Positions 3,128 to 52,440 of a DNA stretch of 64,000 nucleotides are shown one piece after another (the first letter of the stretch is position 1; each line of letters begins with the position of its first letter). Source of the DNA: Octadecabacter arcticus 238 (GTDB lineage: Bacteria > Pseudomonadota > Alphaproteobacteria > Rhodobacterales > Rhodobacteraceae); assembly GCF_000155735.2 (NCBI RefSeq), contig NC_020910.1:95684-159683 (forward strand), given 5' to 3'. Made by a program: the position numbers and the translations under genes. Below the pieces are notes generated by a model. That model searched no databases and was not told where the DNA came from. It worked only from the letters and a program-made list of their open reading frames with translations.

Positions 3128-3135
3128 GTTTCAGA

Positions 3136-19929: not shown

Positions 19930-19941
19930 GGGAAAATAACA

Positions 19942-24393: not shown

Positions 24394-24780
24394 TCAGTTG
24401 TCGTCATCTGGGTCACGCACAATCACATCCGGTTCATCATGGATTTGGGATTGGTCCATGAAGGTGATGCGCATGCCCCATCCTGCGAACGGCCTGATCA
24501 ATTGCATGAACGCGTCGGCATCCAACTCCTTGTCATCGATATACACGACAAGACCACCATCCTCGTTATCTGACACCTCACATTTCAGGACATGACCGCG
24601 CGCTGACCATTGCTTAACATCGTCAAGCCATTCGATTTGCGGCCGTCCTTTCGGGATTTCAATCGGTCGATTGGCCGGATCGGCGATATTGGCCTCTTGG
24701 GCTGCAATGACATCATTGAACATCTCAAGGATTTCACGATCGGACAAAGTATCGATTTCTGGACCAAGCTTGAAATTTAC
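24394..24780 (-). pseudogene. Hypothetical acidic protein, probably 5'-truncated by IS200
   Basis: The frame reads VNFKLGPEIDTLSDREILEM and ends with EPDVIVRDPDDDN. It is acidic and apparently all cytosolic; I do not recognise the family. The only initiation codon before residue 24 is a TTG that lies inside the IS200 element, whose left end begins at 24781, so the original start has probably been displaced. It converges on nothing and follows the same strand as the polymerase, 113 bases upstream of it. Confidence 0.5.
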
Positions 24781-24840
24781 TTTCCACAAACGGGATTAAA
24801 GCCACCGGCTTCCAGCCGGTCCGCTTTAGCGTAATGTACT

Positions 24841-24909
24841 ATAATCTTCCCTCTCATTTTTAAGACCCCGCGAAGCAGTAAGGGTCTTAAAAATGAGAGG
24901 GAAGATTAT
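24841..24909 (+). promoter_or_regulatory. Long leader hairpin masking the tnpA ribosome site (copy A)
   Basis: A perfect 28-bp stem (24841-24868 with 24882-24909) and a 13-base loop. The right arm contains the Shine-Dalgarno sequence gagaggga and reaches the start codon at 24908. The structure would hide the ribosome site and stop read-through transcripts. The same hairpin occurs in copy B at 41303-41371. IS200 of enterobacteria is known to limit transposase synthesis in this way. Confidence 0.85.
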
Positions 24910-25327
24910 GATCTATTCCACAGGAAGCCATACCAAATTTTATCACCGGTTTCACGTCGTCTGGACAACAAAATACCGATACAAAGTTATGCGCGGTGAG
25001 ATGCGTGAGCGTATCCGTGAAATCATTATCCAAACATGCCAAGAACTTGGCGTGCATATTGAGAAGGGCGTATTGTCGACCGATCACGTCCACATGTTCA
25101 TATCGGTCCCGCCTCAGATAGCATTGTCAAAGGTGATGATGCGGATCAAGGGACGCTCGTCTTATAAGATACAGCGCGAGTTTCCCGAACTGCGCAAACG
25201 GTACTGGGGCCAGCGGTTTTGGGCTCGCGGATTTTTCTCAACAACTAGCGGCAATGTCACTGACGCTGTCATACTTCAGTATCTTGAATTACATTCAAAA
25301 AGGGAACCTACCGGCGTCAGCCGGTAG
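24908..25327 (+). CDS. tnpA: IS200-type Y1 transposase TnpA
   Basis: HUH single-strand transposase of 139 residues from ATG 24908; an ATG at 24893 lies inside the hairpin. The metal-binding HUH motif is STDHVHMFISVP, and the catalytic tyrosine is in DAVILQYLELH. The N-terminal FYHRFHVVWTTKYRY is typical of the family. The product is identical to that at 41370-41789. No tnpB gene is present, so this is the IS200 subgroup. Confidence 0.93.
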   Translation: MIYSTGSHTKFYHRFHVVWTTKYRYKVMRGEMRERIREIIIQTCQELGVHIEKGVLSTDHVHMFISVPPQIALSKVMMRIKGRSSYKIQREFPELRKRYWGQRFWARGFFSTTSGNVTDAVILQYLELHSKREPTGVSR

Positions 25328-28360: not shown

Positions 28361-28693
28361 AGGCCCTCGTTCACGGCAAAAGCCACGCCCTATAAACCCA
28401 CCAGACGTTACAAACTGATCCGATCCGCTTCTCAAGCCACAAGGGCGAGGTTCTGCGCCGCGTCAACATGTGGGGGAAGCGGACTAAAAGGGGCGTTGTT
28501 GCATGGAGCATGAAGAGTTCGGAACGCGCCCTGCCCGAGACGGAATTCAGGCGGTGCGTTGGAAATTGGGGCGGCCAAGTTCGGTCATCCGGTTAAGGAT
28601 CCGGACGCCAATCTTGGCCTCTGTTTTCTGATTTCCAAAGTTGCGCGCCTGGAGCTTGGGCCCGACGACGGCCTTCCAACGGCCGATCCGCTG

Positions 28694-28728
28694 CCCGGCA
28701 GTGCATGCGTAGCATGCATGAGAGGGTG
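28694..28728. repeat. Palindromic mini-insertion A in the IS5 transposase
   Basis: About 35 bases absent from the homologous intact copies, with core GCATGCGTAGCATGC. It shares GCATGCGyAGCATGC with insertion B. The same insertion, cut short, is present in the IS5 fragment at 38596-38828. Confidence 0.7.
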
Positions 28729-29132
28729 CGTCTCAATATGGCTGCGCTGATTGTAGCCGGATGACTTCTGCCAAGCCATGCAACCATGGGCAGTTATGTC
28801 TGCAATATGGCGGTCACGAATGCTTGGATTTTGGGCGGCATCGGGGCTCAAAATCGCGTTCTTGGGTGGTGGGATCGTGACCTTGATTGACGCGCCGAAG
28901 CGTTCGATAAGAGCCTCAACTGTTGGCTCGCCATCGTAAGCACCGTCCGCCCGAAATAGGTCAACTGGGCCGTCGATCTGATCCAGCAGGCCCGGCAGCG
29001 CGGTCTGATCACCAATGTCATCAGCGGTCAAATCAGAGCAGACGATCTGGCCGCTGACAAGGTTAAGGCCAAGGTGTAACTTGCGCCAAGAGCGCCGTTT
29101 ACGCTTGGTTTTATGCTTTTGCTCCAGCCATT

Positions 29133-29173
29133 TATTACCCGATAGGCGCATGCGCAGCATGCTGCCGAAAGGG
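29133..29173. repeat. Palindromic mini-insertion B in the IS5 transposase
   Basis: About 41 bases absent from the intact copies, with core GCATGCGCAGCATGC flanked by matching arms (GGC...GCC and cccgat / gaaaggg). Its relation to insertion A suggests a small dispersed palindromic element. Confidence 0.7.
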
Positions 29174-29670
29174 CGCCTTCGCCGAAGATCTTTAACCCAG
29201 TGCTATTCACGACCAGATGTACTGATTCGGTGCTTTTGGACAAAGCTTTGGGAGACAAACTCAGCCCATTGCCTCTGTGTGACAAGGTCGTGAAATGCGG
29301 CACTTCGATCTCAACCCCCAGCAGTCCGGCGATGGAGCGCATCAAGCCTTGGGTTTGCCGCAGTGGTTGCTTGAACACCATGCCAAAGGTCAGGCAAAGC
29401 TCAATCGCCAAGTCCGAATAGCCAGCCTGGCCGCCAGGCGTCGTTCGGGGTGCCGCCGCCCACAAAGCGCGAGCCTCTTCACTTATCCAAACGGTCAGAT
29501 CGCCGCGCAGACGCAGGCTTTCGTCATACGCGGCGCAGTTGGTCACCCGACGCTTTTGCTTCGGGATATTGTCGCGACGATCAGCGTTGAATTTGTGCGG
29601 CATTTATAGCATCCTCAAGAAGGCAGGCCGCCACCAATATCAGTGGATTCGGGGTCCATGCAACAACGCC

Positions 29671-29969
29671 CTGTGGAACAATTATGCGGCTGAAATGGCG
29701 GCCTGAACGGGGCGCGGTTCTTGGTCTCGTCCTGACAGAACAACCTGACAAAGCCCGGTGGTGTCCTTCGACACTGAAAGCGCGGCTGGGGGGCGACATC
29801 TCCGGGAACTCTGTGGTTTGGCGTGGTTGAAGGCGACAGGGGCCGCCCCCATGGCCAATTCAAGTCGCTTCGAGCACCATGTTGAGCGGCGTCTCGGTGG
29901 CGCGCTTAGCCATTACAGCTTCAGACTTCTGCATGATGTCTTTGCGGTGCTTCCCTCAAATGCGTCCCA
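29671..29969. other. Non-coding gap, no gene recognised
   Basis: This 299-base stretch between the IS5 element and the regulator gene has no frame with recognisable family sequence. It may be degraded mobile DNA. Confidence 0.4.
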
Positions 29970-30566
29970 TCACATTGTATCCTGTGGGCGCATCACCTCG
30001 GTGCAGATGCAAACCGCCTCGGCGTCCACGTCGCCTGCGCTGAGATAGGCATGCCCCATCGTGGAATCGAGGTAGATACCCTCGCCGCGCTCAAGAATGA
30101 CGGGGGCATAGAATTCGGTGTGAACCTCGATCGTGCCCTCAAGGACGATCAGGAATTCTTCGCCGCCGTGGCGCTCAAGTGTACCAAACTCCTGCATGGT
30201 CGCAGCCTTGATGCGGGCGCGGATCGGCATCATACGCTTGTTCTTCAACTCGCTGCATAGATAGCGGTATTCATAGTTCTGCGTGTCGATCACGATCCCT
30301 TCGCCTGCGCGCGCGGGCACTAGGCGGCTGTTGGGGGGTGGCTCAGCCTCGCCCTCGGACTCCTCGTTGATCAATTGAGAGATAGTGATGTTAAGCCCCT
30401 CGGCCAGCCGCAGCACCTTATCGAGCGTCGGCGACAGCGCTCCGTTCTCTATCTTAGAAATCGTGGACAGAGCTACACCTGACACAGCCGCCAGGTCGCT
30501 GAGCGTCAGTTGCTGTGATTTTCGCAGCTTTCGCAGCCGCGCCCCCAAGACCTGCTCAGTTGTCAT
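29970..30566 (-). CDS. XRE-family regulator with C-terminal cupin domain
   Basis: Transcription factor of 198 residues. The N-terminal helix-turn-helix (about 9-63) reads LRKLRKSQQLTLSDLAAVSG then VALSTISKIENGALSPTLDK. The C-terminal cupin (about 110-190) includes HGGEEFLIVLEGTIEVHTEF and YLDSTMGHAYLSAG, a small-molecule sensor fold. This architecture controls amino-acid and polyamine catabolic genes (PuuR-like). It is divergent from the D-amino-acid operon, and repeated GAAAAT-type palindromes lie between them, so it probably represses that operon. Confidence 0.92.
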   Translation of the reverse strand: MTTEQVLGARLRKLRKSQQLTLSDLAAVSGVALSTISKIENGALSPTLDKVLRLAEGLNITISQLINEESEGEAEPPPNSRLVPARAGEGIVIDTQNYEYRYLCSELKNKRMMPIRARIKAATMQEFGTLERHGGEEFLIVLEGTIEVHTEFYAPVILERGEGIYLDSTMGHAYLSAGDVDAEAVCICTEVMRPQDTM

Positions 30567-30622
30567 AGTCTCTCCGCTTTCATCAATGTCACATTGATAT
30601 TTAGGCGCAAACTTTGGAAAAG

Positions 30623-30672
30623 GAAAATATTTTCGTATATGAGAAAATTTTGTTGTATCCAGAAAATTTCTG
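30623..30672. promoter_or_regulatory. Three phased GAAAAT/ATTTTC palindromes, candidate XRE operators
   Basis: GAAAATATTTTC (30623-30634), GAAAATTTT (30643-30651) and CAGAAAATTTCTG (30660-30672) are centred about 19 bases apart in the divergent control region. The spacing of nearly two helix turns would put bound dimers on one DNA face. They lie upstream of the dehydrogenase start and close to the regulator's own promoter. Confidence 0.55.
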
Positions 30673-30713
30673 CTTACCGTTGGAGCATCGAGAATCGTAA
30701 GGGAATGGCGCGT

Positions 30714-31856
30714 ATGAATGGACCAGACACCAAAGTGGATGTCGTCGTGATCGGTGCAGGCATGGCCGGGGCGTCAGTTGCGGCAGAACTGGCTACTGGT
30801 GTTCATGTCGTGTTGATCGAGATGGAGGCTCAGCCGGGCTATCATACCACTGGCCGCTCGGCTGCCGTCTTTGCCCCCAACTACGGCCCCGGCGGAGTGC
30901 GCGCGCTGACCCGCGCCTCGCGCAAATTTTTTGACTCGCCGCCCGAAGGCTTTGCCGATGCGCCGCTGCTGTCGCCGCGGCAGATCCTGATGATCGCCCG
31001 CGCGGATCAATCCGCAACGCTTGAGAGGCTGATCGCGACCGCATCTGTTGACTCCGACGTCGAGCAGCTGGATGCGGCAGACCTTCGCTGCTGTCAGCCC
31101 CTGTTGCGCGACGGCTACGCCGAAGCGGGCATGCTGGACGCCGGTGGGCAGGATATCGACGTGGCGGGCCTGCACCAGGGGTATCTGCGACAGTTCAAGG
31201 CGCGCGGCGGCACGTTGATCAACGGCGCTGCGGTTGCCGACCTGTCGCGTGACGGTGACGGATGGATCGTGGTCACGCGCAAAGGCCGGATCGCCGCCGA
31301 CATCGTGGTCAACGCCGCGGGGGCCTGGGCTGATCAGCTTGGACAGCTTGCCGGTGCAGAGTCCATCGGCCTGGTTCCCAAACGGCGCACGGCCATGATG
31401 ATCGCAGAGCCTGCAGGCTTTACCCGGCGCGATGCCCCGATCACCATCGACGTAGACGAGCAATTCTATCTCAAGCCCGATGCCGGGCGGCTGCTGATCT
31501 CGCCCGCGGACGAAACACCGACCGAACCGCAGGACGCCCAACCCGAAGAGCTGGACGTGGCGCTGTGCGCGGACCGGATCATGACCGCCTTCACGCTCGA
31601 CATTCGCCGGATCGAAACCAAGTGGGCCGGGCTGCGCAGCTTTGTCGCGGACAAGGAGCCGGTGATCGGCTGGTCCTGCGCGGCATCCGGTTTCTTTTGG
31701 ATGGCAGGGCAAGGCGGCTATGGAATCCAGTCCGCCCCGGCGGCGGCGAAACTGGCGGCGGCACTGGTGCTGGGACAGCCCGTGCCGTCACACATTCTGG
31801 CCGAAGGCTTTGACGCCGCCCTTGTCTCTCCTTGCAGGATGAGGCAGGCCGCATGA
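30714..31856 (+). CDS. FAD-dependent D-amino-acid dehydrogenase (DauA / D-arginine dehydrogenase-like)
   Basis: Oxidative deamination of D-amino acids to 2-oxo acids. The 380 residues start at MNGPDTKVDVVVIGAGMAGA (start 30714, aaggga site; earlier ATG at 30705). FAD motif GAGMAGAS is followed by QPGYHTTGRSAAVFAPNYG, in which H44 and T46 match the active-site loop of Pseudomonas DauA. PKRRTAMM, FYLKPDAGRLLISPA and WAGLRSFVADKEPV correspond to substrate-binding arginines and tyrosine, and FFWMAGQGGYGIQSAPAAA ends the FAD site. The stop overlaps the TRAP gene by ATGA. It is the first gene of the operon. Confidence 0.88.
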   Translation: MNGPDTKVDVVVIGAGMAGASVAAELATGVHVVLIEMEAQPGYHTTGRSAAVFAPNYGPGGVRALTRASRKFFDSPPEGFADAPLLSPRQILMIARADQSATLERLIATASVDSDVEQLDAADLRCCQPLLRDGYAEAGMLDAGGQDIDVAGLHQGYLRQFKARGGTLINGAAVADLSRDGDGWIVVTRKGRIAADIVVNAAGAWADQLGQLAGAESIGLVPKRRTAMMIAEPAGFTRRDAPITIDVDEQFYLKPDAGRLLISPADETPTEPQDAQPEELDVALCADRIMTAFTLDIRRIETKWAGLRSFVADKEPVIGWSCAASGFFWMAGQGGYGIQSAPAAAKLAAALVLGQPVPSHILAEGFDAALVSPCRMRQAA

Positions 31857-33136
31857 TCTGGGCCGTTCCTGTCGCCGTTGTCGCGCTGCTGGCCTCGGGT
31901 CTGGCGCTGGCCTATGTCATCGGTGGCGCGGCTGTGCTGACCTTCATTCTGTCGGACAACACTCGCTACCTTGCCGTGCTGCCGCAAAAGGTCTTCTCGC
32001 AGATCAGCGTGTTTTCCCTACTGGCGATGCCCCTGTTCATCCTTGCGGGAGAGTTGATGAACCGGGGCGGCGTGACTAAGGCGCTGATCGACCTGTCGAT
32101 GGCGTTGATCGGACGCCTTCGGGGGGGGCTGGGGCATGTCAACATCATGACCTCGGTGTTTTTCGCGGGGATATCCGGGTCGGCCATCGCCGATGCGGCG
32201 GCATTGTCGAACACGCTGGTACCCGCGATGCGCGAACGCGGGTATTCGGCCGAGTACGCGGGAGCGATCACCGCTGCGTCGTCGATCATCGGGCCAATCG
32301 TGCCGCCGTCGATCATCCTGATCTTCTACGGCGCGATCATGCAAACCTCGGTAGCGGCGCTTTTCGTGGCCGGGATCATGCCAGGGTTGCTGCTGGCTGC
32401 GATGCTGTTCGTCATCAACGGCTGGTACGCGTGGCGCGAGGATCACCCACGGATCGAGAAGGGCGAAAGCCCACCACTATTCCCAGCAATACTTGCCGCT
32501 CTGCCGGCGCTCTGCCTGCCCTTCATCATCGTGGGCGGCATCGTTCTGGGCTGGATGACCCCGACCGAGGCGGCGGCAGTGGCCGTGCTGGCCGCCGTTG
32601 TGGCCGCCTTGTTCTATTCGCCGCTGACCAGATCGGACCTTTGGGAAAGTTTCTCGCGCACTGCGATCCTGACGGGATCGATCTTCATGATCCTGTGCGC
32701 GGTGGCGGCATTCGGACATCTTGCGGCGCTGGAACGCATCCCGCAGGCCATCGCCGGTCTGGTCGAGCAGATGGGCCTCGGGCCGGTCGGTTTCCTGCTG
32801 GTGATGAACCTGATCTTCATTTTAGCCGGCATGGTGATGGACGTGCCCGTGGCGCTGGCGCTACTGGTGCCACTGCTGGCCCCCGTGGCGCTGGCCAACG
32901 GGGCAGACCCGGTGCATCTGGGCATCGTCATCTGCTTCAACCTCAGCATCGGGCTGGTCTCGCCGCCGCTTGGCAGTTGCCTGTTGATCGTCTCGACCGT
33001 CACCGGCGTGGACTACTGGAAGCTGGCCCGCAAGGTCCTGCCCTTTCTGGCGGCCGAACTGGTGGTGCTGGGCATCCTTGTCTTCACCCCCGAAATCAGC
33101 CTCTGGCTACCCCGCACGCTGGGTCTGTGGAAATGA
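31853..33136 (+). CDS. TRAP transporter large permease (DctM type)
   Basis: Membrane transport subunit of 427 residues with about 12 helices, driven by a sodium or proton gradient. DctM features are FSLLAMPLFILAGELMNRGG, VNIMTSVFFAGISGSAIADA, IGPIVPPSIILIFYGAIMQT and NLSIGLVSPPLGSCLLIVS. ATG 31853 overlaps the dehydrogenase stop. The order here is large permease, receptor, small permease, which differs from the usual P-Q-M order. Confidence 0.94.
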   Translation: MIWAVPVAVVALLASGLALAYVIGGAAVLTFILSDNTRYLAVLPQKVFSQISVFSLLAMPLFILAGELMNRGGVTKALIDLSMALIGRLRGGLGHVNIMTSVFFAGISGSAIADAAALSNTLVPAMRERGYSAEYAGAITAASSIIGPIVPPSIILIFYGAIMQTSVAALFVAGIMPGLLLAAMLFVINGWYAWREDHPRIEKGESPPLFPAILAALPALCLPFIIVGGIVLGWMTPTEAAAVAVLAAVVAALFYSPLTRSDLWESFSRTAILTGSIFMILCAVAAFGHLAALERIPQAIAGLVEQMGLGPVGFLLVMNLIFILAGMVMDVPVALALLVPLLAPVALANGADPVHLGIVICFNLSIGLVSPPLGSCLLIVSTVTGVDYWKLARKVLPFLAAELVVLGILVFTPEISLWLPRTLGLWK

Positions 33137-33174
33137 CGAAACCGAACTTGGACAAAACAGAGAAGGAAAAGATC

Positions 33175-34146
33175 ATGAAACTAACAAGATTTCTTGCAGC
33201 CTCGACGATGGCCATCGCGCTGGCACTGCCCGCAGGGGCCGAGGTCAAAATCGCACTTGATAGCCCACCCGATCTGGAAAAATCGGGCACCTATGTCTGG
33301 GCGCATACTTTTGGCGAGTATCTGAATGCCAACGGCATGGAAGCGCGTGAATACGAGCGCAACTCGCTGGGCGAAGAAGCGGAACGGCTGGACCAGGTCA
33401 GCCAGGGCCTGCTGGAGGTGTCGATGTCCGACGCCAAATCCGCCGGGACGCTGGATGGCACAATCTTCGGCGCGATGATGCCTTATTTCTTCGAAGACAT
33501 GGAGCAGCTTGACCGCGCGCTTGACGAGGGGGGCATGCTGGACCGCATAAACGAGGGTACGACTCCCAAGGGCGTGCGCGTACTGGATATCGTCTATACC
33601 GGAACGCCCTCCGGGATCTTCACCACTGAAGTGCCGATCCGCACCTTCGAGGACATTCAAGGCGTGCGCATGCGCGCACTGGACGAGGTGCAGATCACCA
33701 CGTTCGAGAACTGGGGCTCGAAGGGCACGATCGTGTCGTGGTCCGAGGTGCCCAATGCGCTGCAGACCGGCGTGGCAGGCGGATACATCAACCCCGCCTT
33801 CGTGCCACTGACTTATGGGCACACCGCATTCATCAAGTATTTCACCAACGCCAAGATGAGCGCGTCGGTCCGCGTCGCCATCGCGTCCGAGGACTGGTAC
33901 CAAGGCCTGTCCGACGAGGAACGCCAGATCGTTGCGGATGCGGTGGCCGAGGCGCATGACGCCAACCGCGACCTGGTGTCTGACGATACCGCCGTCTTGA
34001 AAGAGCTGGAAGAGGCAGACATCGAGGTGATCGAGCTGAGCCCGGAAGAGCGCGCCAAGTTTCGCGAGGCAAGCCAGCCGATCTATCAGGAGACGGACAT
34101 GCCCGAGGGCGCGCTTGACGCCTGGAACGCAGCCGTAGGGCGCTGA
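33175..34146 (+). CDS. TRAP transporter substrate-binding protein (DctP type)
   Basis: Periplasmic receptor of 323 residues. The signal peptide is MKLTRFLAASTMAIALALPA with cleavage after GA near residue 22. The mature part has the family's SLGEEAERLDQVSQGLLEVS, PYFFEDMEQLDRALDEGG and IQGVRMRALDEVQ, where arginines usually bind the ligand carboxylate. Start chosen at 33175 with agaagga ahead of it. The receptor would bind a carboxylate such as an N-acyl amino acid. Confidence 0.93.
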   Translation: MKLTRFLAASTMAIALALPAGAEVKIALDSPPDLEKSGTYVWAHTFGEYLNANGMEAREYERNSLGEEAERLDQVSQGLLEVSMSDAKSAGTLDGTIFGAMMPYFFEDMEQLDRALDEGGMLDRINEGTTPKGVRVLDIVYTGTPSGIFTTEVPIRTFEDIQGVRMRALDEVQITTFENWGSKGTIVSWSEVPNALQTGVAGGYINPAFVPLTYGHTAFIKYFTNAKMSASVRVAIASEDWYQGLSDEERQIVADAVAEAHDANRDLVSDDTAVLKELEEADIEVIELSPEERAKFREASQPIYQETDMPEGALDAWNAAVGR

Positions 34147-34149
34147 ACG

Positions 34150-34674
34150 ATGCGGGCGGTGTCCATCACGTTGAACCGGCTGTCCGACAGTCTGAACCGT
34201 GTGGCCTTGGTAGGGGCAGCCCTTGCCGTCGCCGTCATGCTGGCCGCGGCCGGCTGGCAGGTCATCGCCCGCTATCTTCTGAACCAACCTCCGATCTGGA
34301 CCGAGGAGCTGGCGCGCTTCTCGATGGTCTGGGGAGGGCTTCTGGGGGCGTCCTGCGCATTCCGGCTGCGCCGCGATCCGACGCTGTTTCCCGAGGCGTT
34401 GAAAGCCACCGGCGCGCGCGGGCTGGTCTTTACGGTGCTGCGGTCGTTTGGCGTGCTATGCTTCATCCTGCCGATCCTGTGGTTCAGCCTGCTTGGCTCC
34501 GGCGCAGATCCCGCGCGCGGATACCTTGCGCGGCTTGCCGGACGGCAGACAGAAACGATGGACCTGCCGATGGTGGTGTTCGGCGTCGCGATCCCACTCG
34601 CCTTTGCGCTGATCCTTCTGCACGTTCTGGCCGACATTGCATCAGCGCTGGACAATACAAGGAATGACGAATGA
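34150..34674 (+). CDS. TRAP transporter small permease (DctQ type)
   Basis: Four-helix membrane protein of 174 residues. Helices include LVGAALAVAVMLAAAGWQVI and VLRSFGVLCFILPILWFSL; between them is the DctQ pattern PPIWTEELARFSMVWGGLLG. It starts 3 bases after the receptor stop and overlaps the next gene by ATGA, so all are one transcript. Confidence 0.92.
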   Translation: MRAVSITLNRLSDSLNRVALVGAALAVAVMLAAAGWQVIARYLLNQPPIWTEELARFSMVWGGLLGASCAFRLRRDPTLFPEALKATGARGLVFTVLRSFGVLCFILPILWFSLLGSGADPARGYLARLAGRQTETMDLPMVVFGVAIPLAFALILLHVLADIASALDNTRNDE

Positions 34675-36119
34675 AACTCTTCATGGCGTCGCTCGCGACG
34701 GAAACCAATTCGTTCTCGCCGATCCCGACCGGGTGGAGCGGATTTCGCGAGCATCTATACACCAAGGAGGCCTCGCGGGGCGAGGCCGGTCTGTATGCCG
34801 CCGCCGTCACCATTTGGCGCTGCCGCGCCGAAGAGCGCGGCTGGGACGTGGCCGAGGGGCTTTCGACCTATGCCCAACCCGCCGGGCCGACTGTGCGCCA
34901 TGTCTATGAAACGATGCGCGACGATATCCTGACCGACCTGCGCGCGGCAATGCCGGTGGACTTGGTCCTGATGTCGATGCACGGGGCGATGATCGCGCAG
35001 GGCTATGACGACTGCGAGGGCGACATGATGGCCCGCATCCGCGAGATCGTGGGACCGGAGGCCAAGATCGGACTGGAGCTTGATCCCCATTGTCACCTGA
35101 CCGAACAGATGCTGGATAACGCCACCGCGATCATCTGCTACAAGGAATATCCCCATATCGACGTGAAAGAGCGCGCCGAGGAACTGTTCACCCTGTGCGC
35201 CGATGCCGCCGAGGGCAACATCACCCCCGTCATGCGCGACTACGACTGTCGGATGCTGGCGATGTATCACACCCCTTTCGAGCCGATGCGTAGCTATGTT
35301 GATCGGATGTCCGCGATGGAGGGTAAGGACGGCATCCTGTCGGTTTCGCTGGTGCACGGTTTTCCCTGGGGCGACAGCCCGCGCGTGGGCGCCCGCACAC
35401 TGGTCATCACCGACGGCGACGCCGAACTGGCTGAGGCGCGGGCACAGGAATTGGGACAGGACCTATGGGCGCTGCGCGACAAGCTGCGTCGTTTTCCCCC
35501 GATGGAAGAAGGGATCGACCGCGCGTTGACGGTCAACGGCGCTCCCGTGGTGATGGCCGATTTCGCCGACAACGCCGGCGGAGGCGCGCCTTCGGACGCG
35601 ACCTTTGTCCTGCGCGCGGCGCTGGATCGCGGCCTGAAGGACATTGCCTTCGGCACCTTCTGGGACCCGGTCCTTGTCGGCATGTGCATCGACGCCGGGG
35701 TCGGGGCCAAAATAGCCGTGCGCATCGGTGGCAAGATCGGGCCGATGTCAGGCAATCCGGTGGATCTGACGGTGACCGTGCGGGGCATCGCCCGTGACGC
35801 CGTACAGCATCTGGGCAGTGCCGCAATGAGCATGGGCGATTGCGTCTGGCTGGAATCCGATGGGCTGCATATCCTCGTCAACACCCGCCGCACCCAGACC
35901 TTTCACCCCGAGGCCTTCGAGAACACCGGAATGGACCTTGGCGCAATGAAGTACATCGTCGTCAAATCCTCGCAACATTTCTATGACGGTTTCGCGCCGA
36001 TCGCTGCCGAGGTGATCCATCTGGCCACCCCGGGGGCGATCACGCCGGATTTCACCATCATCCCTTTCACCAAGCGGGATGACAGTTATTGGCCAAAGAC
36101 CGAGAATCCGTTCAACTAA
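34671..36119 (+). CDS. M81 family metallopeptidase (MlrC-like)
   Basis: Zinc peptidase family named for MlrC, which cleaves linearised microcystin. The 482-residue protein has the N-terminal domain (KLFMASLATETNSFSPIPTG, LMSMHGAMIAQGYDDCEGD) with the zinc ligands E in ATETNSF, D and H in LELDPHCHL and H in YKEYPHID, and the C-terminal domain with DFADNAGGGAPSDATFVLRA and YIVVKSSQHFYDGFAPIA. Family members often sit beside peptide or amide degradation genes. In this operon it could open peptide bonds involving D-residues. Confidence 0.92.
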   Translation: MKLFMASLATETNSFSPIPTGWSGFREHLYTKEASRGEAGLYAAAVTIWRCRAEERGWDVAEGLSTYAQPAGPTVRHVYETMRDDILTDLRAAMPVDLVLMSMHGAMIAQGYDDCEGDMMARIREIVGPEAKIGLELDPHCHLTEQMLDNATAIICYKEYPHIDVKERAEELFTLCADAAEGNITPVMRDYDCRMLAMYHTPFEPMRSYVDRMSAMEGKDGILSVSLVHGFPWGDSPRVGARTLVITDGDAELAEARAQELGQDLWALRDKLRRFPPMEEGIDRALTVNGAPVVMADFADNAGGGAPSDATFVLRAALDRGLKDIAFGTFWDPVLVGMCIDAGVGAKIAVRIGGKIGPMSGNPVDLTVTVRGIARDAVQHLGSAAMSMGDCVWLESDGLHILVNTRRTQTFHPEAFENTGMDLGAMKYIVVKSSQHFYDGFAPIAAEVIHLATPGAITPDFTIIPFTKRDDSYWPKTENPFN

Positions 36120-36130
36120 AGGAGATCCCA

Positions 36131-37633
36131 ATGCCACAGGCCTTTGACATCATCATCCGTGGCGGACGCGTGATGGATCCCGAAACAGGGTTCGACAGTA
36201 TCTGCGATGTCGCCATCACCGGCGACATCATCATCCGAATCGGCAAGATCGACGGATCGGCCGGGCACGAGATCGACGCGACGGGGCTGATCGTGGCCCC
36301 GGGCTTTCTTGATCTGCACGCGCACGGGCAGTCCGTGGCCGCCGACCGGATGCAGGCGTTTGACGGGGTGACCACGACCCTTGAGCTTGAGGTGGGCGCG
36401 CTGCCTGTCGCGGGCTGGTACGACCGACAGGCAGAAATTCCCCGGGTGCTGAACTATGGCACAGCTGCGGCGTGGATCTTTGGCCGCAAGGCGGTGATCG
36501 GCGATATCCAGCTGGACCCCGAAGTGCATCCAATCGACCAGATGGGCGCCGGGGCCTATGACATGCGCTGGTCAACCGAGGCCGCGACGTCGGAACAGAC
36601 CGCCCGGATCGTCGGTCTTGTGCGGCAGGGGCTGGACGACGGGGCCATCGGAATCGGCCTGCCCAATGGCTATGCCCCCGGTGCCGGCGTCAAGGAAATG
36701 GCGGATATATGCGATCTGGCCTTTGACTACGGCACACCGACCTTCACCCATATTGCCTATCTCAGCAACATCGACCCGCAAAGCTCGGTTGACAGCTATG
36801 TCCGGCTGATCGGATTGGCCGGGGCGACGGGCGCGCACATGCACATCTGCCATCTGAACTCGACCTCGCTGATGGACATCGAACGGGTGGTGGAACTGGT
36901 GGCCAAGGCACAGGACCAAGGCTTGCCGGTCACGACCGAGGCCTACCCCTACGGCACCGGGGCCACCGTTGTCAGCGCAGGTTTCTTCATGGACCCAAAC
37001 TTTGTCGAACGCACCGGCAGCGCGTATTCGAACATCGAACTAGTCCACAACCACCACCGCTTTACCGGGCGCGAGGACATGAAATCCGCGCGCGAGAAAT
37101 CACCGACCGATCTTGTGATGTGGCACTACCTGGATGTCGAGGTGAACGATAATCACCGCCGCCTGCTGGATCTGTCGGTGACGTATCCCGGCGGCTCGAT
37201 CGCGTCCGACGCGATGCCGTGGACCGACACCGACGGCAGCATTTACGAAGGTCTAGAATGGCCCCTGCCCGACCGGCTGTCGGCGCATCCGCGCTCGTCG
37301 GGTACGTTCACCCGTTTCCTGCGTGACCACGTGCGCGAGCGCAAAACGATGCCCTTGATGGACGCGCTGGCGAAATGCACAATCCTGCCCGGTCGGGTGA
37401 TCGAGAGCTGCGCGCCGCAGATCGCCAGGAAAGTGCGCTTGCAGGAAGGCTGCGATGCGGATGTGGTTGTCTTTGATCTGGAGACGCTTAGCGACATGGC
37501 CGATTTTGTGGCCATGAGTCGTCCGTCGCAAGGGGTGAGGCACTTGTTGGTGGGGGGCGTGCCGGTGATCGCGGACGGGCAACTGGACACCAGTGCCGCG
37601 CCTGGCCGCCCGATCCGCCGCACATCGGGATGA
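36131..37633 (+). CDS. N-acyl-D-amino-acid deacylase-like amidohydrolase
   Basis: Metal-dependent amidohydrolase of the D-aminoacylase group, 500 residues. Start 36131 follows aaaggagat. Metal ligands H63 and H65 are in GFLDLHAHGQS; further ones are H in PTFTHIAYLSN, H in HMHICHLNSTS and D in IASDAMPW. The N- and C-terminal beta-sandwich (IIRGGRVMDPETG; DADVVVFDLETLSD) is typical. Family enzymes release D-amino acids from N-acyl or N-carbamoyl forms; the adjacent D-amino-acid dehydrogenase supports this role. TTLELEVG replaces the cysteine-containing loop of some family members. Confidence 0.88.
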   Translation: MPQAFDIIIRGGRVMDPETGFDSICDVAITGDIIIRIGKIDGSAGHEIDATGLIVAPGFLDLHAHGQSVAADRMQAFDGVTTTLELEVGALPVAGWYDRQAEIPRVLNYGTAAAWIFGRKAVIGDIQLDPEVHPIDQMGAGAYDMRWSTEAATSEQTARIVGLVRQGLDDGAIGIGLPNGYAPGAGVKEMADICDLAFDYGTPTFTHIAYLSNIDPQSSVDSYVRLIGLAGATGAHMHICHLNSTSLMDIERVVELVAKAQDQGLPVTTEAYPYGTGATVVSAGFFMDPNFVERTGSAYSNIELVHNHHRFTGREDMKSAREKSPTDLVMWHYLDVEVNDNHRRLLDLSVTYPGGSIASDAMPWTDTDGSIYEGLEWPLPDRLSAHPRSSGTFTRFLRDHVRERKTMPLMDALAKCTILPGRVIESCAPQIARKVRLQEGCDADVVVFDLETLSDMADFVAMSRPSQGVRHLLVGGVPVIADGQLDTSAAPGRPIRRTSG

Positions 37634-38544
37634 GCGTTCCGATCCTGCTGATCACCGGGTTCCTGGGCGCGGGCAAGACAACGCTGATCAACCGCCTGCT
37701 TGGCGCTGATCATGGACGCCGGATTGCCGCCATCGTCAATGATTTCGGTGCGATCAACATTGATGCGGACATCCTGAGCGGAAGCGCCGAAGGCATCATC
37801 GGGCTCAAGAATGGCTGCATCTGCTGTTCTCTTCAGGGCGACCTGTTGCGCACGATCAAACTGCTTTTAACCCAGGATCCGGTCCCCGAACTGATCGTGA
37901 TCGAGGCCAGCGGTGTGGCCGATCCCGCAGGTATCGTGCAATCACTGATGGACCCGGTGATCGGGCTTCAGGCCAGCCTTGGCAGCATCGTCTGCGTGGT
38001 TGATGCTCCCGATGCCGCGACGCGCGGCGCTGATCCGCTGTGGCAGGCGCAGGTGCGCGCGGCCGACATGATCTGCCTGTCCAAGACCGGCGAGACGGAC
38101 CCGGACGCGCTGGTCAGTCTACAGACCCGCCTGGCCGTTGAACAGCGACGGTATGGTTTCGACATGGATGCGCCCTTGCCACTTGCCGTTCTGCTTGAGG
38201 CGGGACCGACGGCGGACCGGCCACGAGACACCATCCGCGCGCCGCTGCGCGACGACCGTTTTGTTCATCTTGAATGGACACACTCGGGGGCGGTGGACAT
38301 GCGCGCGTTCCAGGATCTGATTGGGCATTTGGCCCCGGATCTGCTCCGCGCCAAGGGGTTCCTGACATTTCAGGGACGCACGGGTTGCATGCTGTTTCAG
38401 TTGGCCGGACAACGCGCGACGCTGGCCCCTGCGCAGGATCCGCACAGGACCGGCTGCGCGCTTGTGCTGATCGGGGAACACGGCACCTTCGATCCCGACG
38501 CGGCGCACGCAGATCTGGATCGACTTAGCCCGGATAATTCATAA
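37630..38544 (+). CDS. CobW/COG0523 family GTPase (putative metallochaperone)
   Basis: G3E-type GTPase of 304 residues. The P-loop GFLGAGKTTLI is at 10-20, the metal-binding CICC motif at 63-66 (KNGCICCSLQGDL), Walker B in LIVIEASGVADP and the C-terminal CobW domain ends in RTGCMLFQLAGQ. The guanine-specificity motif is unusual (CLSKTGETD rather than NKxD). Relatives deliver zinc or other metals to client enzymes. Its ATGA overlap with the amidohydrolase gene suggests that it loads the two metallohydrolases of this operon. Confidence 0.9.
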   Translation: MSVPILLITGFLGAGKTTLINRLLGADHGRRIAAIVNDFGAINIDADILSGSAEGIIGLKNGCICCSLQGDLLRTIKLLLTQDPVPELIVIEASGVADPAGIVQSLMDPVIGLQASLGSIVCVVDAPDAATRGADPLWQAQVRAADMICLSKTGETDPDALVSLQTRLAVEQRRYGFDMDAPLPLAVLLEAGPTADRPRDTIRAPLRDDRFVHLEWTHSGAVDMRAFQDLIGHLAPDLLRAKGFLTFQGRTGCMLFQLAGQRATLAPAQDPHRTGCALVLIGEHGTFDPDAAHADLDRLSPDNS

Positions 38545-38595
38545 AGCTGAAATCTTCTGTTCAGGCGGTCGGCTTCCGGGGTCTCGGGTTTGTCG

Positions 38596-38828
38596 GGCGT
38601 TGTTGCATGGAGCATGAAGGGGTCGGAACGCGCCCTACCCGAGACAGATTTCAGGCGGTGAGTTGGAAGTTGGAGCGGCCAAGTTCGGTCATCCGGTTAA
38701 GGATCCGGACGCCAATCTTGGCCTCTGTTTTCTGATTTCCAAAGTTGCGCGTCTGGAGCTTGGGCCCGACGACGGCCTTCCAACGGCCGATCCGCTGCCC
38801 GGCAGTGCATGCGTAGCATGCATGAGAG
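38596..38828 (-). pseudogene. IS5 transposase C-terminal fragment with part of mini-insertion A
   Basis: Closely matches 28492-28725: the terminal repeat ggcgttgttgcatgg, the last codons (NRMTELGRSNFQ) and the segment IGRWKAVVGPKLQTRNFG, up to the palindromic insertion GCATGCGTAGCATGC, where it stops. The intact IS5 at 38829 begins exactly there. Confidence 0.85.
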
Positions 38829-39926
38829 CCGTGTTGCATGGATGTGGCGAAGTCCGAGATTGCCCTTACCCATAATTCAGGTCATGCAACAGCCTCGTAC
38901 TTGGCACAGCCAAGCCCGTTCATTTTGTTGAGAATGTTAGTCCCAATCCTGACTTCAGTTTTTTGGTTCGGAAAGTTTCGAGCTTTCAGTTTGGGGCCGA
39001 TGACCATCTTCCAGCGGCCTATTTGTGCTTCGCCTCGGCTCCGGTGATTGTAGCCGCTGCTAACTTGCCATGCCAGGCGCCCTTTGTCTCGAATCTCCAC
39101 GATGTGTTTATCTCGGGGCGTTGGATCACGGGCAGAATCGAGGCTGAGAACGGCCGTGATCGGAGGCGGGATTACAATCTCTATCGCTTCACCAAAACGG
39201 TCCACAAGCAGATCGCTGGTAGGATCGCCATCATAGGCGCCATCCGCCAAAAAGCGGCTAACAGGAGCGTCAATTTGATCGAGAAGTTCGGGCAAAGCAG
39301 TTGGGTCGCCCACGTCGTCTTTTGTCAAATCGGAGCAAACGATATCTCCAGTTGTGATATCCAGTCCAAGATGCAGCTTGCGCCACGACTTACGTTTGGC
39401 CTTTGTTTTATGCTTATTCTGCAACCATTCGCCTTCGCCAAATATCTTCAGACCCAAACTATCCACAACTAATTCGATTGGGCCGGCCCTTTGGGCTTTG
39501 GATTTTTCTGGTATGCTGAGCCCTGCACCTCTCCGCGAGAGGGTCGAGAAATCCGGAATGGGAACATCCAGCCCCATAAGCCACGCCAAACTGCCGACCA
39601 ACCTTTGCGTCTGCCGCAAACGTTGTTTGAAAACCATACCCAGCGTCAGAAATACTGATATGGCCATATCATAGTATGTGGGTTGGCCGCCTGGCGCCTG
39701 ACGTTTATCGGCAAGCCACTTATCTGCAACCTCAGGGCTCAACCAAATTGTCACATCACCGCGCTGACGCAGGCCTTGATTGTACACTCGCCAGTTGGTG
39801 ACCTTCTGTCGCTTCTTTTCAAACTTGTGGCGGCGGGAAGCGTTGAATTTGTGCGGCATCATTAATATCCAAGTCGTTAGCAAGCTGGGTGTATAGCAGA
39901 CCCGCTGGGGTCCATGCAACAACGCC
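38829..39926 (-). mobile_element. IS5-family insertion sequence, complete copy
   Basis: About 1098 bases. Right end tccatgcaacaacgcc at 39911-39926; the left end is a slightly altered ccgtgttgcatgga from about 38829. It lies between an older IS5 fragment and the 3'-truncated IS21 istA gene, which it interrupts. Confidence 0.88.
38882..39862 (-). CDS. IS5-family transposase
   Basis: A 326-residue DDE transposase from ATG 39862 (MMPHKFNASRRHKFEKKRQK). Core motifs are D in VVDSLGLKIFGEGEWL, D in FLADGAYDGDP and E in RGEAQIGRWKMVIG within the YREK-like C-terminal part. It differs from the copy at 57794-58774 by a small number of substitutions (for example SLGL against STGL beside the first catalytic aspartate). 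The frame is complete. Confidence 0.93.
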   Translation of the reverse strand: MMPHKFNASRRHKFEKKRQKVTNWRVYNQGLRQRGDVTIWLSPEVADKWLADKRQAPGGQPTYYDMAISVFLTLGMVFKQRLRQTQRLVGSLAWLMGLDVPIPDFSTLSRRGAGLSIPEKSKAQRAGPIELVVDSLGLKIFGEGEWLQNKHKTKAKRKSWRKLHLGLDITTGDIVCSDLTKDDVGDPTALPELLDQIDAPVSRFLADGAYDGDPTSDLLVDRFGEAIEIVIPPPITAVLSLDSARDPTPRDKHIVEIRDKGRLAWQVSSGYNHRSRGEAQIGRWKMVIGPKLKARNFPNQKTEVRIGTNILNKMNGLGCAKYEAVA

Positions 39927-41184
39927 CCTGTACATACTCACGCCGCCCCGCCTTGATCATTCGGGCTTCCATCAAGCGGCGCAGGGTCGCAAATTCGTCC
40001 GGCAAGTCCCAGCCCGCCAAAGGGGCGGCTTGATCCAATGCGCCCGCCTTCTGCTCCAGCAGGGGCAAGTAGTGGATCGGGTCAAAGACCATGTCTTCGC
40101 GGTCCCAGCACCTTGGGTGGCGGGAAATGACGTCGCCACCACAGCCAATCACAACCTGATCGACATAGCCGCGTAGCCAGACGTCACGATGGCCATAGGC
40201 AACCGGAACGGAATAATCGTTGGTTTTATAGCGCACCAATGCTTGCGAGTTCACTTGGCCGCTGGCCTGATCACAGGCATCGAACGGAGATGCTGGCAGA
40301 TCCATCATGGCCTCAAGATCGCGGGCCAAGCGTTGCCCGATGCTGTCGCTATGCCCGCGCAAGACATCGTTCTGGCGCTTGCGGCATTGCTCTTCCAGCC
40401 AAAGATTGAATGCCTCCCACGTGGCAAAATGAGGGATGGGCACCATGAAGTTGCGCCGGGCATATCCGACCAGACCCTCAACGGCGCCTTTATCGTTGCC
40501 CTTGCCCGGGCGACCATAACGATCCTGGATGAAGTAATGCGACAGAAACCCGCTGAACAGTTTGGTCCGCTTGCGTGAACCGTCTGGCAGGATCTTCGCA
40601 ACAAGGCACCGGTCGTTGTCGTAGAGAACCGACTGCGGCACCCGCCCGAAGAAGGCAAAGGCATGGACATGGCCATCAACCCAGGCCTCGGAGACCGCTG
40701 CAGGATAAGCACGCACAAAGCATGCGTCGCTGTAGGGCAGATCCAGTGCAAAGAAATGTGCCTTCTGCTCCACACCGCCGATCACGACCATCGCTTCGCC
40801 AAAATCCGCCTGAGCGTGGCCAGGCGCATGTGCCAGTGGGACAAACATCTCTCGATGGTGGCGGCCATGTTCCCGGACATAGTTCTTGACCGTGGTTTGC
40901 CCGCCTCGAAATTGATGCTCGTCCCGCAGACGTTCAAAAATGCGCTTGGCCGTGTGACGTTGCTTACGGTTCCGGCTGAGATCGTCTTGCAGCCATTGAT
41001 CAATGAAGCCGGTAAAGCCATCAAGCTTGGGCCGCTTGATCTTCGCAGTTCGTTGATATCCGGGCGGAACCGAAAAGCTCATCATCTTCTTCACGCTCGC
41101 GCGCGATATCCCAAAATGAACGGCTGCTGCTCGTTCGCTCATGCCACCTCGACGTGCGAGGCGGACCTTTCTGTAAAGTTCCAC
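39927..41184 (-). pseudogene. IS21 transposase IstA, C-terminus removed by IS5
   Basis: Starts MELYRKVRLARRGGMSERAA with helix-turn-helix HFGISRASVKKMMSFS, then the DDE core (AQADFGEAMVVIGGVEQKAH, SVLYDNDRCLVAKILP, KGNDKGAVEGLVGYARRNFM). After REYVQ the frame runs into the IS5 end at 39926. About the last tens of residues and all of istB are absent. The upstream IS end at about 41185-41242 is cut by IS200 copy B. This IstA differs from the one at 28144. Confidence 0.9.
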
Positions 41185-41242
41185 GCTGAAAATACCCCCG
41201 CCCTCCCTGAAAACAGAAAAGACTAAAGTGGCAAAGTTTTAC

Positions 41243-41798
41243 TTTCCACAAACGGGATTAAAGCCACCGGCTTCCAGCCGGTCCGCTTTAGCGTAATGTA
41301 CTATAATCTTCCCTCTCATTTTTAAGACCCCGCGAAGCGGTAAGGGTCTTAAAAATGAGAGGGAAGATTATGATCTATTCCACAGGAAGCCATACCAAAT
41401 TTTATCACCGGTTTCACGTCGTCTGGACAACAAAATACCGATACAAAGTTATGCGCGGTGAGATGCGTGAGCGTATCCGTGAAATCATTATCCAAACATG
41501 CCAAGAACTTGGCGTGCATATTGAGAAGGGCGTATTGTCGACCGATCACGTCCACATGTTCATATCGGTCCCGCCTCAGATAGCATTGTCAAAGGTGATG
41601 ATGCGGATCAAGGGACGCTCGTCTTATAAGATACAGCGCGAGTTTCCCGAACTGCGCAAACGGTACTGGGGCCAGCGGTTTTGGGCTCGCGGATTTTTCT
41701 CAACAACCAGCGGCAATGTCACTGACGCTGTCATACTTCAGTATCTTGAATTACATTCAAAAAGGGAACCTACCGGCGTCAGCCGGTAGTCGTTCAGT
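41243..41798 (+). mobile_element. IS200/IS605-family element, copy B
   Basis: Same 556-base unit as 24781-25336, again directly after TTAC (41239-41242), with leader hairpin (41303-41371) and right-end hairpin. The two copies differ at one base in the leader loop (cgaagcGg here) and one in the gene (acCagc here), so one was copied recently from the other or from a common source. Confidence 0.92.
41370..41789 (+). CDS. tnpA: IS200-type Y1 transposase TnpA (second copy)
   Basis: Protein identical to that at 24908-25327: HUH motif STDHVHMFISVP and catalytic tyrosine in ILQYLELH, 139 residues. The Shine-Dalgarno sequence is again buried in the right arm of the 28-bp leader hairpin, so expression should be low. 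Confidence 0.93.
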   Translation: MIYSTGSHTKFYHRFHVVWTTKYRYKVMRGEMRERIREIIIQTCQELGVHIEKGVLSTDHVHMFISVPPQIALSKVMMRIKGRSSYKIQREFPELRKRYWGQRFWARGFFSTTSGNVTDAVILQYLELHSKREPTGVSR

Positions 41799-45183: not shown

Positions 45184-46416
45184 CTACTTGTGTTCGTTCA
45201 TCAGAGGGAGGGTTGGCAGCAGTGCATCAATCGCCGACCTAACGTCGTCGAGCATCGGCGAGGCATCTTTTTCACGCTTCCAGAGCGATGCAAAGTCGCT
45301 GGCGGTTTCTCGCGCGACATCAAGAACCATTTTTTTGGGTAACGCTGCTTTCGCAGCAAGATGGGAGATTTCATCTTCATCAAAGGCAGCAAAATCTCGA
45401 ACACGACTGTAGTTAAGGGCGAAGCTGTCACCTTTAATGTAAGGGACTGTTGATACAAAATCATAGGCTGGCGAAAGGGCGGCGCTGCGTCGATCAGGGT
45501 AGATCAGCGACCAGTTCTTAAGATGCATGTCCCCGTTGCCAATCAACGTGCTGAACGTCAGGCGACGTATGAACTCACGGATGTCTTCATCCGATCCTTC
45601 CGCCGCGATGACAGCAGCAATATTTCGCATGCTCGCCTTCTTATATTTATCTTCGCCATAGACGCCAAAGACTTGAGCGAAGTCTTCTATATGCACGCGC
45701 TCTCCGCTGGGGTGCCGGTCAAAGCGTTCGATCACGAAGGCCTTGGTTCCAAAGCGATCAGTGCCGTCAGGCAGATTTGCGATACTGTCGATATCGACCA
45801 GATCAATGCGAGGCACGTCCATGCCGAGCATTTTGGCCAGCCGCATCATTGAAAATTCGTTTTCAGGGACACCCATGTATTCCCGTGATGGCAGTTTGAC
45901 GATCCAATCACCGCCAATGCCCGACGCGGGAATAGTCAGCCCGCCGCTTGCGCCCTCAATGGCTGAGAATTTCAATTGAACACCGGCGAGAGAGAACCGA
46001 AGCATGTTGTCTTTTGATTTTGGCGCGTCTTCGCCATCCACATGCGCGGCCTCTGGTGGCCAGATTTCGCCGTCCGCCGGTTTGATTGTTATCGCGCCAG
46101 GAAGGTCGCGCCCTAACGCCCAAAGCAAAAAGAATTCGCGCTCGGCATTAACCCCTGCTTGCTCTGCGAGGTACTTGCGCAAGTGACCCTCAGGCAAGAC
46201 GTTTGAAAAAAACGGCATGACCTGTTTTTGGACAGGCTTAAATTCGGTGCGCAACTCGCCAAACTCATCCTTGAAAAACAGACCGAGTGTCGAGCGGTCA
46301 GGGTTTTCGATATACTCTTCGTTGAACGCGAACAGACTGCGATCCCCCGCGACGCGTGTCAGCGTTCCGATGTTTTCACCATAAAGCTCAACATTTAGCA
46401 CAGATACATCAGCCAT
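45184..46416 (-). CDS. hipA: HipA-family serine/threonine kinase toxin
   Basis: Toxin kinase of about 410 residues; HipA relatives phosphorylate glutamyl-tRNA synthetase or similar targets and cause persistence. N-terminal domain: VLNVELYGENIGTLTRV, VMPFFSNVLPEG. Kinase features: FSLAGVQLKFSA, WIVKLPS, the catalytic loop LIGNGDMHLKNWSLIY (D and N) and the metal motif PAYDFVSTVPY. I chose ATG 46416 behind gagga; ATG 46425 is nine bases upstream. It overlaps hipB by 8 bases. An IS6 element abuts its stop. Confidence 0.92.
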   Translation of the reverse strand: MADVSVLNVELYGENIGTLTRVAGDRSLFAFNEEYIENPDRSTLGLFFKDEFGELRTEFKPVQKQVMPFFSNVLPEGHLRKYLAEQAGVNAEREFFLLWALGRDLPGAITIKPADGEIWPPEAAHVDGEDAPKSKDNMLRFSLAGVQLKFSAIEGASGGLTIPASGIGGDWIVKLPSREYMGVPENEFSMMRLAKMLGMDVPRIDLVDIDSIANLPDGTDRFGTKAFVIERFDRHPSGERVHIEDFAQVFGVYGEDKYKKASMRNIAAVIAAEGSDEDIREFIRRLTFSTLIGNGDMHLKNWSLIYPDRRSAALSPAYDFVSTVPYIKGDSFALNYSRVRDFAAFDEDEISHLAAKAALPKKMVLDVARETASDFASLWKREKDASPMLDDVRSAIDALLPTLPLMNEHK

Positions 46417-47008: not shown

Positions 47009-47028
47009 ATTCTGATCTACTTTCACAC

Positions 47029-52296: not shown

Positions 52297-52440
52297 AATA
52301 TGGACCACCATTCCCTTAATCTGCAAGAATTTCTGAGCTTCACACAGAAGACCTGCGCATTCTTACTGCTAATGCAAAAATATCTTGCCCACTCCATAAA
52401 TTTCTGTTCCACATTATGGCATATTGAAAGAGGAACCACC
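52297..52440. promoter_or_regulatory. Divergent control region between iclR and TRAP genes
   Basis: AT-rich 144-base region that must hold both promoters. The segment attccacattatggcatattg near 52410-52430 is a loose palindrome that could be an IclR site, but no clear repeat was found. A gaggaacc ribosome site precedes the TRAP receptor gene. Confidence 0.4.

Follow-up and report, generated by a model that had tools for sequence, protein, structure and literature searches.

A conserved operon of predicted D-amino-acid catabolism with an amidohydrolase-linked CobW-type NTPase in Octadecabacter arcticus 238

Introduction

The D-arginine dehydrogenase DauA of Pseudomonas aeruginosa is described as oxidising every D-amino acid except D-Asp and D-Glu, with E87 and E246 binding the guanidinium group and R222 and R305 the alpha-carboxylate (PMC11193025). 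Many COG0523 proteins, the group of CobW-type NTPases, are still without a known client (PMC9164220). Relatives of both occur together in an eight-gene operon of Octadecabacter arcticus 238, which we analyzed within a stretch of 64,000 nucleotides (contig NC_020910.1, positions 95,684 to 159,683; hereafter the window). The operon combines a divergent XRE-cupin regulator with a DauA-like dehydrogenase, a complete TRAP transporter (the DctM, DctQ and DctP genes all together), an M81 metallohydrolase, an amidohydrolase (hereafter AH) and a CobW-type NTPase.

Judged by sequence comparison, the operon is real, conserved and of D-amino-acid catabolic type, and the NTPase itself is unusual. With moderate confidence, we favor a plasmid-borne operon that would catabolize D-amino acids with an acyl- or peptidyl-blocked amino group, and that includes a CobW protein probably dedicated to the AH. 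Among the matches listed in our literature search, no paper linked COG0523 to such amidohydrolases by its title or the start of its abstract, which is no claim of absence from print, and none combined three of M81, amidohydrolase, TRAP transporter and CobW. In Haas 2009 (PMC2770081), the word amidohydrolase is absent at least from the main text, ten further subfamilies being placed in the supplement.

Linkage of CobW to the amidohydrolase

A genome scan with the AH as query gave 78 loci. Thirty-three loci with an AH at least 55% identical were reduced to 29 distinct ones, apart from the window itself, by dropping those with identical AH DNA (L087, L094, L095, L099). The CobW gene adjoins the AH gene (at least 56% identity) in 27 of these 29 by script, and in 28 when L016, where the AH match is broken, is added by hand. 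The 29th locus, from Chachezhania, has a 56% identical CobW elsewhere in the genome, with no amidohydrolase directly beside it.

The survey was also carried out from the side of CobW, using the 30 best loci from 385 Alphaproteobacteria (at most one per genome, the window's gene included, flanks of 1.5 kb). Fifteen of the 30 lie directly downstream of a same-strand amidohydrolase gene; five of these 15 belong to the window's clade (three from one genus), and without the clade the count is 10/25. The profile of one count had been enriched with six neighbors, and the un-enriched count was also 15. The ten linked survey loci outside the clade were scanned, and all carried Amidohydro_3. Among the controls, the 30 loci with top PF02492 scores, none was found behind an amidohydrolase gene, 28 of them being informative (L181 and L185 are without upstream sequence). 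Among the plasmid hits for CobW, an AH gene adjoins each of the top five (50-62%), and the two ranking below them (35-38%) stand behind other Amidohydro_3 genes.

In a tree of 68 CobW sequences (28 linked, 40 unlinked), the AH-linkage label changes 3 times, vs 21.9 times after shuffling, and none of 500 shuffles was as low. The window protein stands in a clade of 14 rows, all AH-linked, with support 100/98. Several other linked rows are on long branches, so that their positions are unsure. By these comparisons, the window CobW is part of an amidohydrolase-associated branch of COG0523.

The M81 gene follows another pattern. It occurs without CobW in the five loci examined (L125, L126, L129, L130, L131), and seven loci (L012, L014, L015, L018, L019, L083, L084) carry CobW and AH with no M81 within 8 kb. 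Because the AH-CobW adjacency is conserved across operon types and M81 is found without CobW, the client of CobW is most likely the AH and not the M81 enzyme.

Some further pairs were observed. Two more amidohydrolase-COG0523 pairs occur in one Chachezhania genome (L204, L206), the amidohydrolase of L206 giving no match to the window AH in tblastn. On a Mesorhizobium plasmid (L127, 5860-7877), a CobW gene stands behind an Amidohydro_3 gene, with an annotated MlrC C-terminal-domain fragment about 0.7 kb further.

Motifs and nucleotide specificity of CobW

PF02492 and PF07683 are above cut-off in the window CobW, which places it in COG0523 by descent, and Walker A, the Walker B Glu and CxCC are invariant in all 29 AH-partner CobWs, as expected of COG0523. 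The G4 motif NKxD, which recognizes the guanosine base (PMC9164220), is intact in only 2 of the 29 and reads SKTG in the window protein; its Asp is lost in 23 of 29. L019 and L085 are relatives that keep the motif. Unlinked COG0523 proteins retain the Asn (40/40) and the Asp (39/40). The first position of the motif alone means little, because E. coli YjiA reads TKTD; loss of the Asp is the stronger sign. Also, the 28 linked tree proteins all show NDFG where 37/40 unlinked ones show NE, and a His stretch is present in 0/14 rows of the window clade and 1/14 other linked rows vs 20/40 unlinked rows.

Nucleotide specificity of COG0523 proteins is at present unpredictable from sequence (PMC9164220), and altered specificity is thus a prediction here. 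We call the window protein an NTPase, as the label GTPase would rest on family descent. More tentatively, one lineage of COG0523 proteins might be a dedicated metal inserter of the amidohydrolase superfamily, in which the branch of this operon would have lost guanine recognition, would use another or promiscuous nucleotide, and would load a Glu/His/His-type AH that frees blocked D-amino acids; we regard this as possible.

Sister operons and distribution

The gene order of the window was found in 12 of the 78 AH loci and on two named Sulfitobacter plasmids, in Rhodobacteraceae and in Nitratireductor. Repeated in this way, it is not due to chance. All eight genes are present at ten loci (L004-L008, L010, L013, L016, L017, L022); in L009 the regulator is truncated by the contig end, and L011 is without adjacent CobW. 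The AH is uncommon among the genomes scanned, with matches at E 1e-60 in 8/385 alphaproteobacterial genomes and 21/394 of the family (the window's genome counted in both, identities down to about 32% included).

Three main arrangements can be described. Type 1, that of the window, is XRE / DauA-like, DctM, DctP, DctQ, M81, AH, CobW. Type 2 (L012, L014, L015) shows TRAP genes on the opposite strand, then a DadA-like DAO, an aminotransferase III, AH, CobW and a PTE-family hydrolase. Type 3, on a Roseomonas plasmid, is XRE / M81, SBP5, AH, CobW. Further AH-CobW arrangements occur in Tistrella, Acuticoccus, Acidisphaera (L019) and Falsigemmobacter (L018, with CobW convergent). Across these loci, AH and CobW are the core of the travelling gene set. 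Relatives of AH adjoin two types of DAO-family enzyme, DauA-like (type-1 loci; L079, 43%) and DadA-like. The latter have PRK00711 as best NCBIfam match, below its cut-off, in L015 and L119, and were assigned via similarity to L015 in L012, L014 and L122.

Among distant AH relatives, tandem pairs were observed at L028, L031, L034, L037, L041, L046, L101-L104 and L118, and in 14/82 distant rows the HxH motif begins with Glu instead of His. Some distant relatives adjoin a gene for DUF1611, which we take to be DgcN-like, or for a MenC-type racemase whose DgcA match is far below cut-off. The DgcN-DgcA D-glutamate route (PMC10845958) was considered for the window operon, and none of it was seen there.

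Residues of the three enzymes

The AH scores 688.6 bits with NF006560 (cut-off 340). Its best PDB matches are D-aminoacylases (nearest solved structure 3gip, E 1.4e-22), hydantoinases being much lower, and its identity to two D-aminoacylases used for comparison (Azospirillum, Cupriavidus) is 25-27%. Fold and metal site were assigned by sequence alignment, with the strictly conserved D-aminoacylase residues taken after PMC12017989. Residue counts refer to 124 rows (32 close, 10 middle and 82 distant, near-copies included) and exclude matches shorter than 400 residues, such as that of L016. Both His ligands and the catalytic Asp align with those of D-aminoacylases and are found in 32/32 close rows, and the Tyr and Arg of the alpha-carboxylate site are present (YPY and HPR motifs). 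The Arg of the HxR motif, found in 82/82 distant and 10/10 middle rows, is Ala in 31/32 close rows. Elsewhere in the same genome, AH gave short, weak matches only. Names carried by homologues, such as 'D-glutamate deacylase', come from annotation and were given no weight as evidence.

The dehydrogenase is identical to DauA (PDB 3nyc) at 171/370 positions and retains Y249 and Q336, the gating residues Y53 and E246, and the alpha-carboxylate residues R222 and R305. The guanidinium-binding E87 is Ile and H48 is Val in 15/15 orthologues, while the second guanidinium-binding residue, E246, is kept. The protein reaches no NCBIfam cut-off, and it has one 38% relative in the genome, on contig C1. As predicted from these residues, D-amino acids of neutral or hydrophobic character are its likeliest substrates; D-Arg would be possible, given E246, and is less likely.

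In the M81 protein, the five Zn ligands named for MlrC (PMC12474180) align to 7ylq as E11, H104, D138, H140 and H162 (hand-counted positions). It has no other match in the genome at E 1e-20.

Regulator and candidate operator

The 16-bp palindrome TTTTCGTATACGAAAA occurs with 0-3 mismatches in 14/14 XRE-DAO intergenic regions of type-1 operons (the window and 13 loci, L009 and short loci being left out), and in each of the 14 loci no better match stands elsewhere. The window site, TTTTCGTATATGAGAA, has 2 mismatches. For the window alone, 0.13 sites with up to 3 mismatches are expected, and 13 of 100 shuffles had at least one. Related sites are TTTGCGTATTCGCAAA, close to the XRE gene of C. metallidurans, and TTTGCGAATACGCAAA, close to that of Comamonas. 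The best palindrome site of Phyllobacterium L125 has 4 mismatches, and L079 and Roseomonas L085 have none with fewer than 6.

Gene layout, replicon and mobile elements

The gene content and positions of the original prediction agree with our reading (open reading frame list, Pfam and NCBIfam scans), and all eight genes were found at 29970-38544 (Table 1). Its description as seven overlapping genes holds for the tight packing; only three junctions overlap, each by 4 bases, and three others leave 3, 11 and about 37 bases between the genes. DctM starts at ATG 31853, overlapping the DAO stop, where the list had TTG at 31832. The DctP start, an ATG, was placed from sequence reading; a 571-residue reading frame from 32431 was rejected as DctP, being an artefact in which the DctP domain begins only at residue 303.

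Table 1. Coordinates of the operon and of other features of the window.
Feature	Position	Strand	Basis or remark
XRE-cupin transcriptional regulator, divergent	29970..30566	(-)	Pfam HTH_3 + Cupin_2; orthologue at equivalent position in sister operons
Candidate operator TTTTCGTATATGAGAA	30630..30645	.	2 mismatches to 16-bp palindrome
DauA-like FAD-dependent D-amino-acid dehydrogenase	30714 (about)..31856	(+)	Pfam DAO; PDB 3nyc E 4.5e-97
TRAP large permease DctM	31853..33136	(+)	Pfam DctM; TIGR00786 above cut-off
TRAP substrate-binding protein DctP	about 33174..34146	(+)	Pfam DctP; NF037995 above cut-off
TRAP small permease DctQ	34150..34674	(+)	Pfam DctQ
M81 (MlrC-type) metallohydrolase	34671..36119	(+)	Pfam DUF1485 + MlrC_C; MlrC 7ylq E 7.7e-97
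Amidohydrolase AH, NF006560/PRK09061 subfamily, probable N-blocked D-amino acid deacylase	36131..37633	(+)	NF006560 score
CobW/COG0523-type NTPase, proposed dedicated AH metal-loading partner	37630..38544	(+)	Pfam cobW + CobW_C; adjacency; tree; eroded NKxD
Left IS5-type element	28491..29671		Transposase split into two open reading frames
Piece of left IS5-type element	38595..38828		234 bp, 96% identical to part of the element
Right IS5-type element	about 38861..39927
Further copy of right IS5-type element	57773..58838		95.7% identical over 1066 bp
IS21-family transposase	39877..41184
363-bp repeat, downstream of IS21-family transposase	41238..41600		Repeated at 24776..25138, 99.7% identity
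HipA-like gene	45184..46425		Pfam HipA_C + Couple_hipA; adjoining reading frame 46409..47026
PntA/PntB-type NAD(P) transhydrogenase genes	18358..21375		On the probable plasmid
AMP-binding enzyme	48744..50846		Perhaps another catabolic set, with the second DctP
Second TRAP DctP	52078..53445		See preceding row

Contig C3 is 159,683 bp long, and its final 64 kb are the window. With a RepC gene at 2769-3284, the contig is probably a repABC plasmid. The operon has 62.4% GC, vs 54% either side, and is bracketed by related IS5-family elements sharing a 17-bp terminal repeat, GGGCGTTGTTGCATGGA, like a composite transposon. The window gave no Rfam match at the gathering threshold and no tRNA. Between 29900 and 38900, 3 promoter-like and 6 terminator-like sites were counted, vs 2.4 and 6.0 in shuffles.

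Discussion

From the gene content, the conserved order, the AH-CobW coupling across operon types, the conserved palindrome and the residue patterns, all observed, we infer the substrates, transport direction, metal transfer, electron acceptor and regulation. The TRAP transporter would import a blocked D-amino acid compound, which the M81 enzyme may trim and from which AH would release the D-amino acid. The DauA-like flavoenzyme would then oxidize this, giving a 2-oxo acid plus ammonia and feeding the electrons into the respiratory chain. The operon would be regulated by the XRE-cupin protein via the palindrome, and the CobW-type NTPase would load metal into AH, not into M81.

This scheme retains the outline of the original prediction (import, opening, deacylation and oxidation), with the substrate less certain. 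The theme of D-amino-acid catabolism was upheld by the likeness to DauA and by a parallel cluster in C. metallidurans, described below. The proposed check of CobW conservation in sister operons was positive. For a CobW serving both hydrolases, synteny points to one of them, AH, the five M81 loci examined being without CobW. N-acetyl-D-Glu, -Asp and -Arg are weakened as first-choice substrates, since DauA is reported to spare D-Glu and D-Asp (PMC11193025) and E87 is Ile here. For cyanobacterial cyclic peptides as a source, we found no evidence beyond the MlrC-likeness of M81. The amidohydrolase is D-aminoacylase-like by its best PDB matches, and lacks two residues common to the studied D-aminoacylases.

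These two residues are among several points that weigh against the reading we favor. The Cys metal ligand is absent, the D-aminoacylase NCG aligning with EVG, where Glu87, one residue before the Cys place, is kept in 32/32 close, 10/10 middle and 80/82 distant rows. The alpha-carboxylate Lys is absent as well: HHK aligns with HLN, the Asn being found in 32/32 close rows. Because of these two losses, AH is classed on sequence as NF006560 and not as a D-aminoacylase. The separate CobW of Chachezhania indicates that AH-CobW adjacency is not obligatory, and an adjacent CobW was found in only 2/12 loci with AH at 40-55% identity (both CobWs on a different tree branch) and in 0/2 below 40%; CobW is therefore not required by the whole AH subfamily. 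The survey controls, with the highest PF02492 scores, are a non-random COG0523 sample and overlap in some genes with the unlinked test loci; of the 28 linked tree rows, 13 were added from known AH-CobW pairs. Also, the aminotransferase III and PTE-family hydrolase of type 2 are a poorer fit to a D-amino-acid scheme, and none of the loci speaks directly to chirality.

The residues that AH lacks could suit a ring-opening or decarbamoylating enzyme (hydantoin, lactam or diketopiperazine type), the amino acid product still going to the DauA-like enzyme. The Glu near the Cys-ligand place and CHLN in place of SHHK speak for it, and parts of AH match dihydroorotase, allantoinase and hydantoinase models, weakly and all far below cut-off. 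Nevertheless, the ranking of the PDB matches, the retained Tyr and Arg of the carboxylate site and the canonical-residue D-aminoacylase of the comparable C. metallidurans cluster argue against it, and we consider such an activity unlikely. Quite unlikely, in our view, is a blocked substrate that is achiral or an L-amine or L-amino acid, with the flavoenzyme being another kind of amine oxidase. The exchange of H48 and E87, a DAO protein below every NCBIfam cut-off, and the type-2 aminotransferase III, whose top models are glutamate-1-semialdehyde aminomutases, would be compatible with it; against it stand the five retained residues R222, R305, Y249, Y53 and E246, and the recurrence beside AH of two types of D-amino-acid-dehydrogenase-like enzyme.

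The CobW protein might also be a general zinc-homeostasis NTPase (ZigA/YciC-like) or a helper of M81, present by chance or co-regulation. Many COG0523 genes have been linked to zinc limitation (PMC2770081), in M. smegmatis CobW-type genes and amidohydrolase genes alike have predicted Zur sites upstream (PMC7174638), and one paralogue in the window's genome adjoins a gene that is ZnuA-like by eye. We hold this to be very unlikely, in view of the loci with M81 and no CobW, the seven with AH and CobW and no M81, the absence of the His stretch from the window clade, and the separate AH-linked clade in which the window CobW stands.

As an adjacent, co-inherited pair, AH and CobW offer a candidate client for a COG0523 protein, open to metal-transfer testing, and with NKxD eroded in the clade of this pair, direct tests of which nucleotide these 'GTPases' prefer become possible. 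If the reading of a blocked-D-amino-acid operon is true, plasmid-borne gene sets may recycle D-amino acids that are acylated or bound in peptides.

Comparison with known systems

With D-aminoacylase / N-acyl-D-glutamate deacylase (subtype V; 1m7j, 3gip), AH shares the family, two metal His, Asp, Tyr and Arg, and it has a D-amino-acid-dehydrogenase-like enzyme as operon partner; it differs in the missing Cys, with an invariant Glu one residue upstream, and in the change of Lys to Asn. The dehydrogenase shares Y53, R222, E246, Y249 and R305 with DauA and differs by E87I and H48V, for which a weaker D-Arg preference is expected. The MlrC microcystinase (M81; 7ylq) matches the window M81 over nearly its full length, with five Zn ligands in common; the operon context is different, with TRAP, DauA-like and AH genes (no search was made for mlrA, mlrB or mlrD). 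Nha3, the COG0523 activator of Fe-type nitrile hydratase, likewise adjoins and seems dedicated to one metalloenzyme (PMC2770081, PMC9164220), whereas the proposed client of the window CobW is an amidohydrolase and its G4 NKxD is eroded.

The C. metallidurans CH34 megaplasmid cluster (1773850-1784575) shares with the window an XRE-cupin gene (-), a DauA-like enzyme (47%), M81 (48%), a transporter and an Amidohydro_3 deacylase, and a related palindrome lies upstream. Unlike the window, it has SBP5 with Opp-type permease and ATPase in place of TRAP, and its deacylase is a D-aminoacylase with the canonical Cys and Lys; no CobW match was found within the 20 kb searched. This cluster is the strongest argument for reading the operon as one of D-amino-acid catabolism, and it is also an independent sign that CobW pairs with AH.

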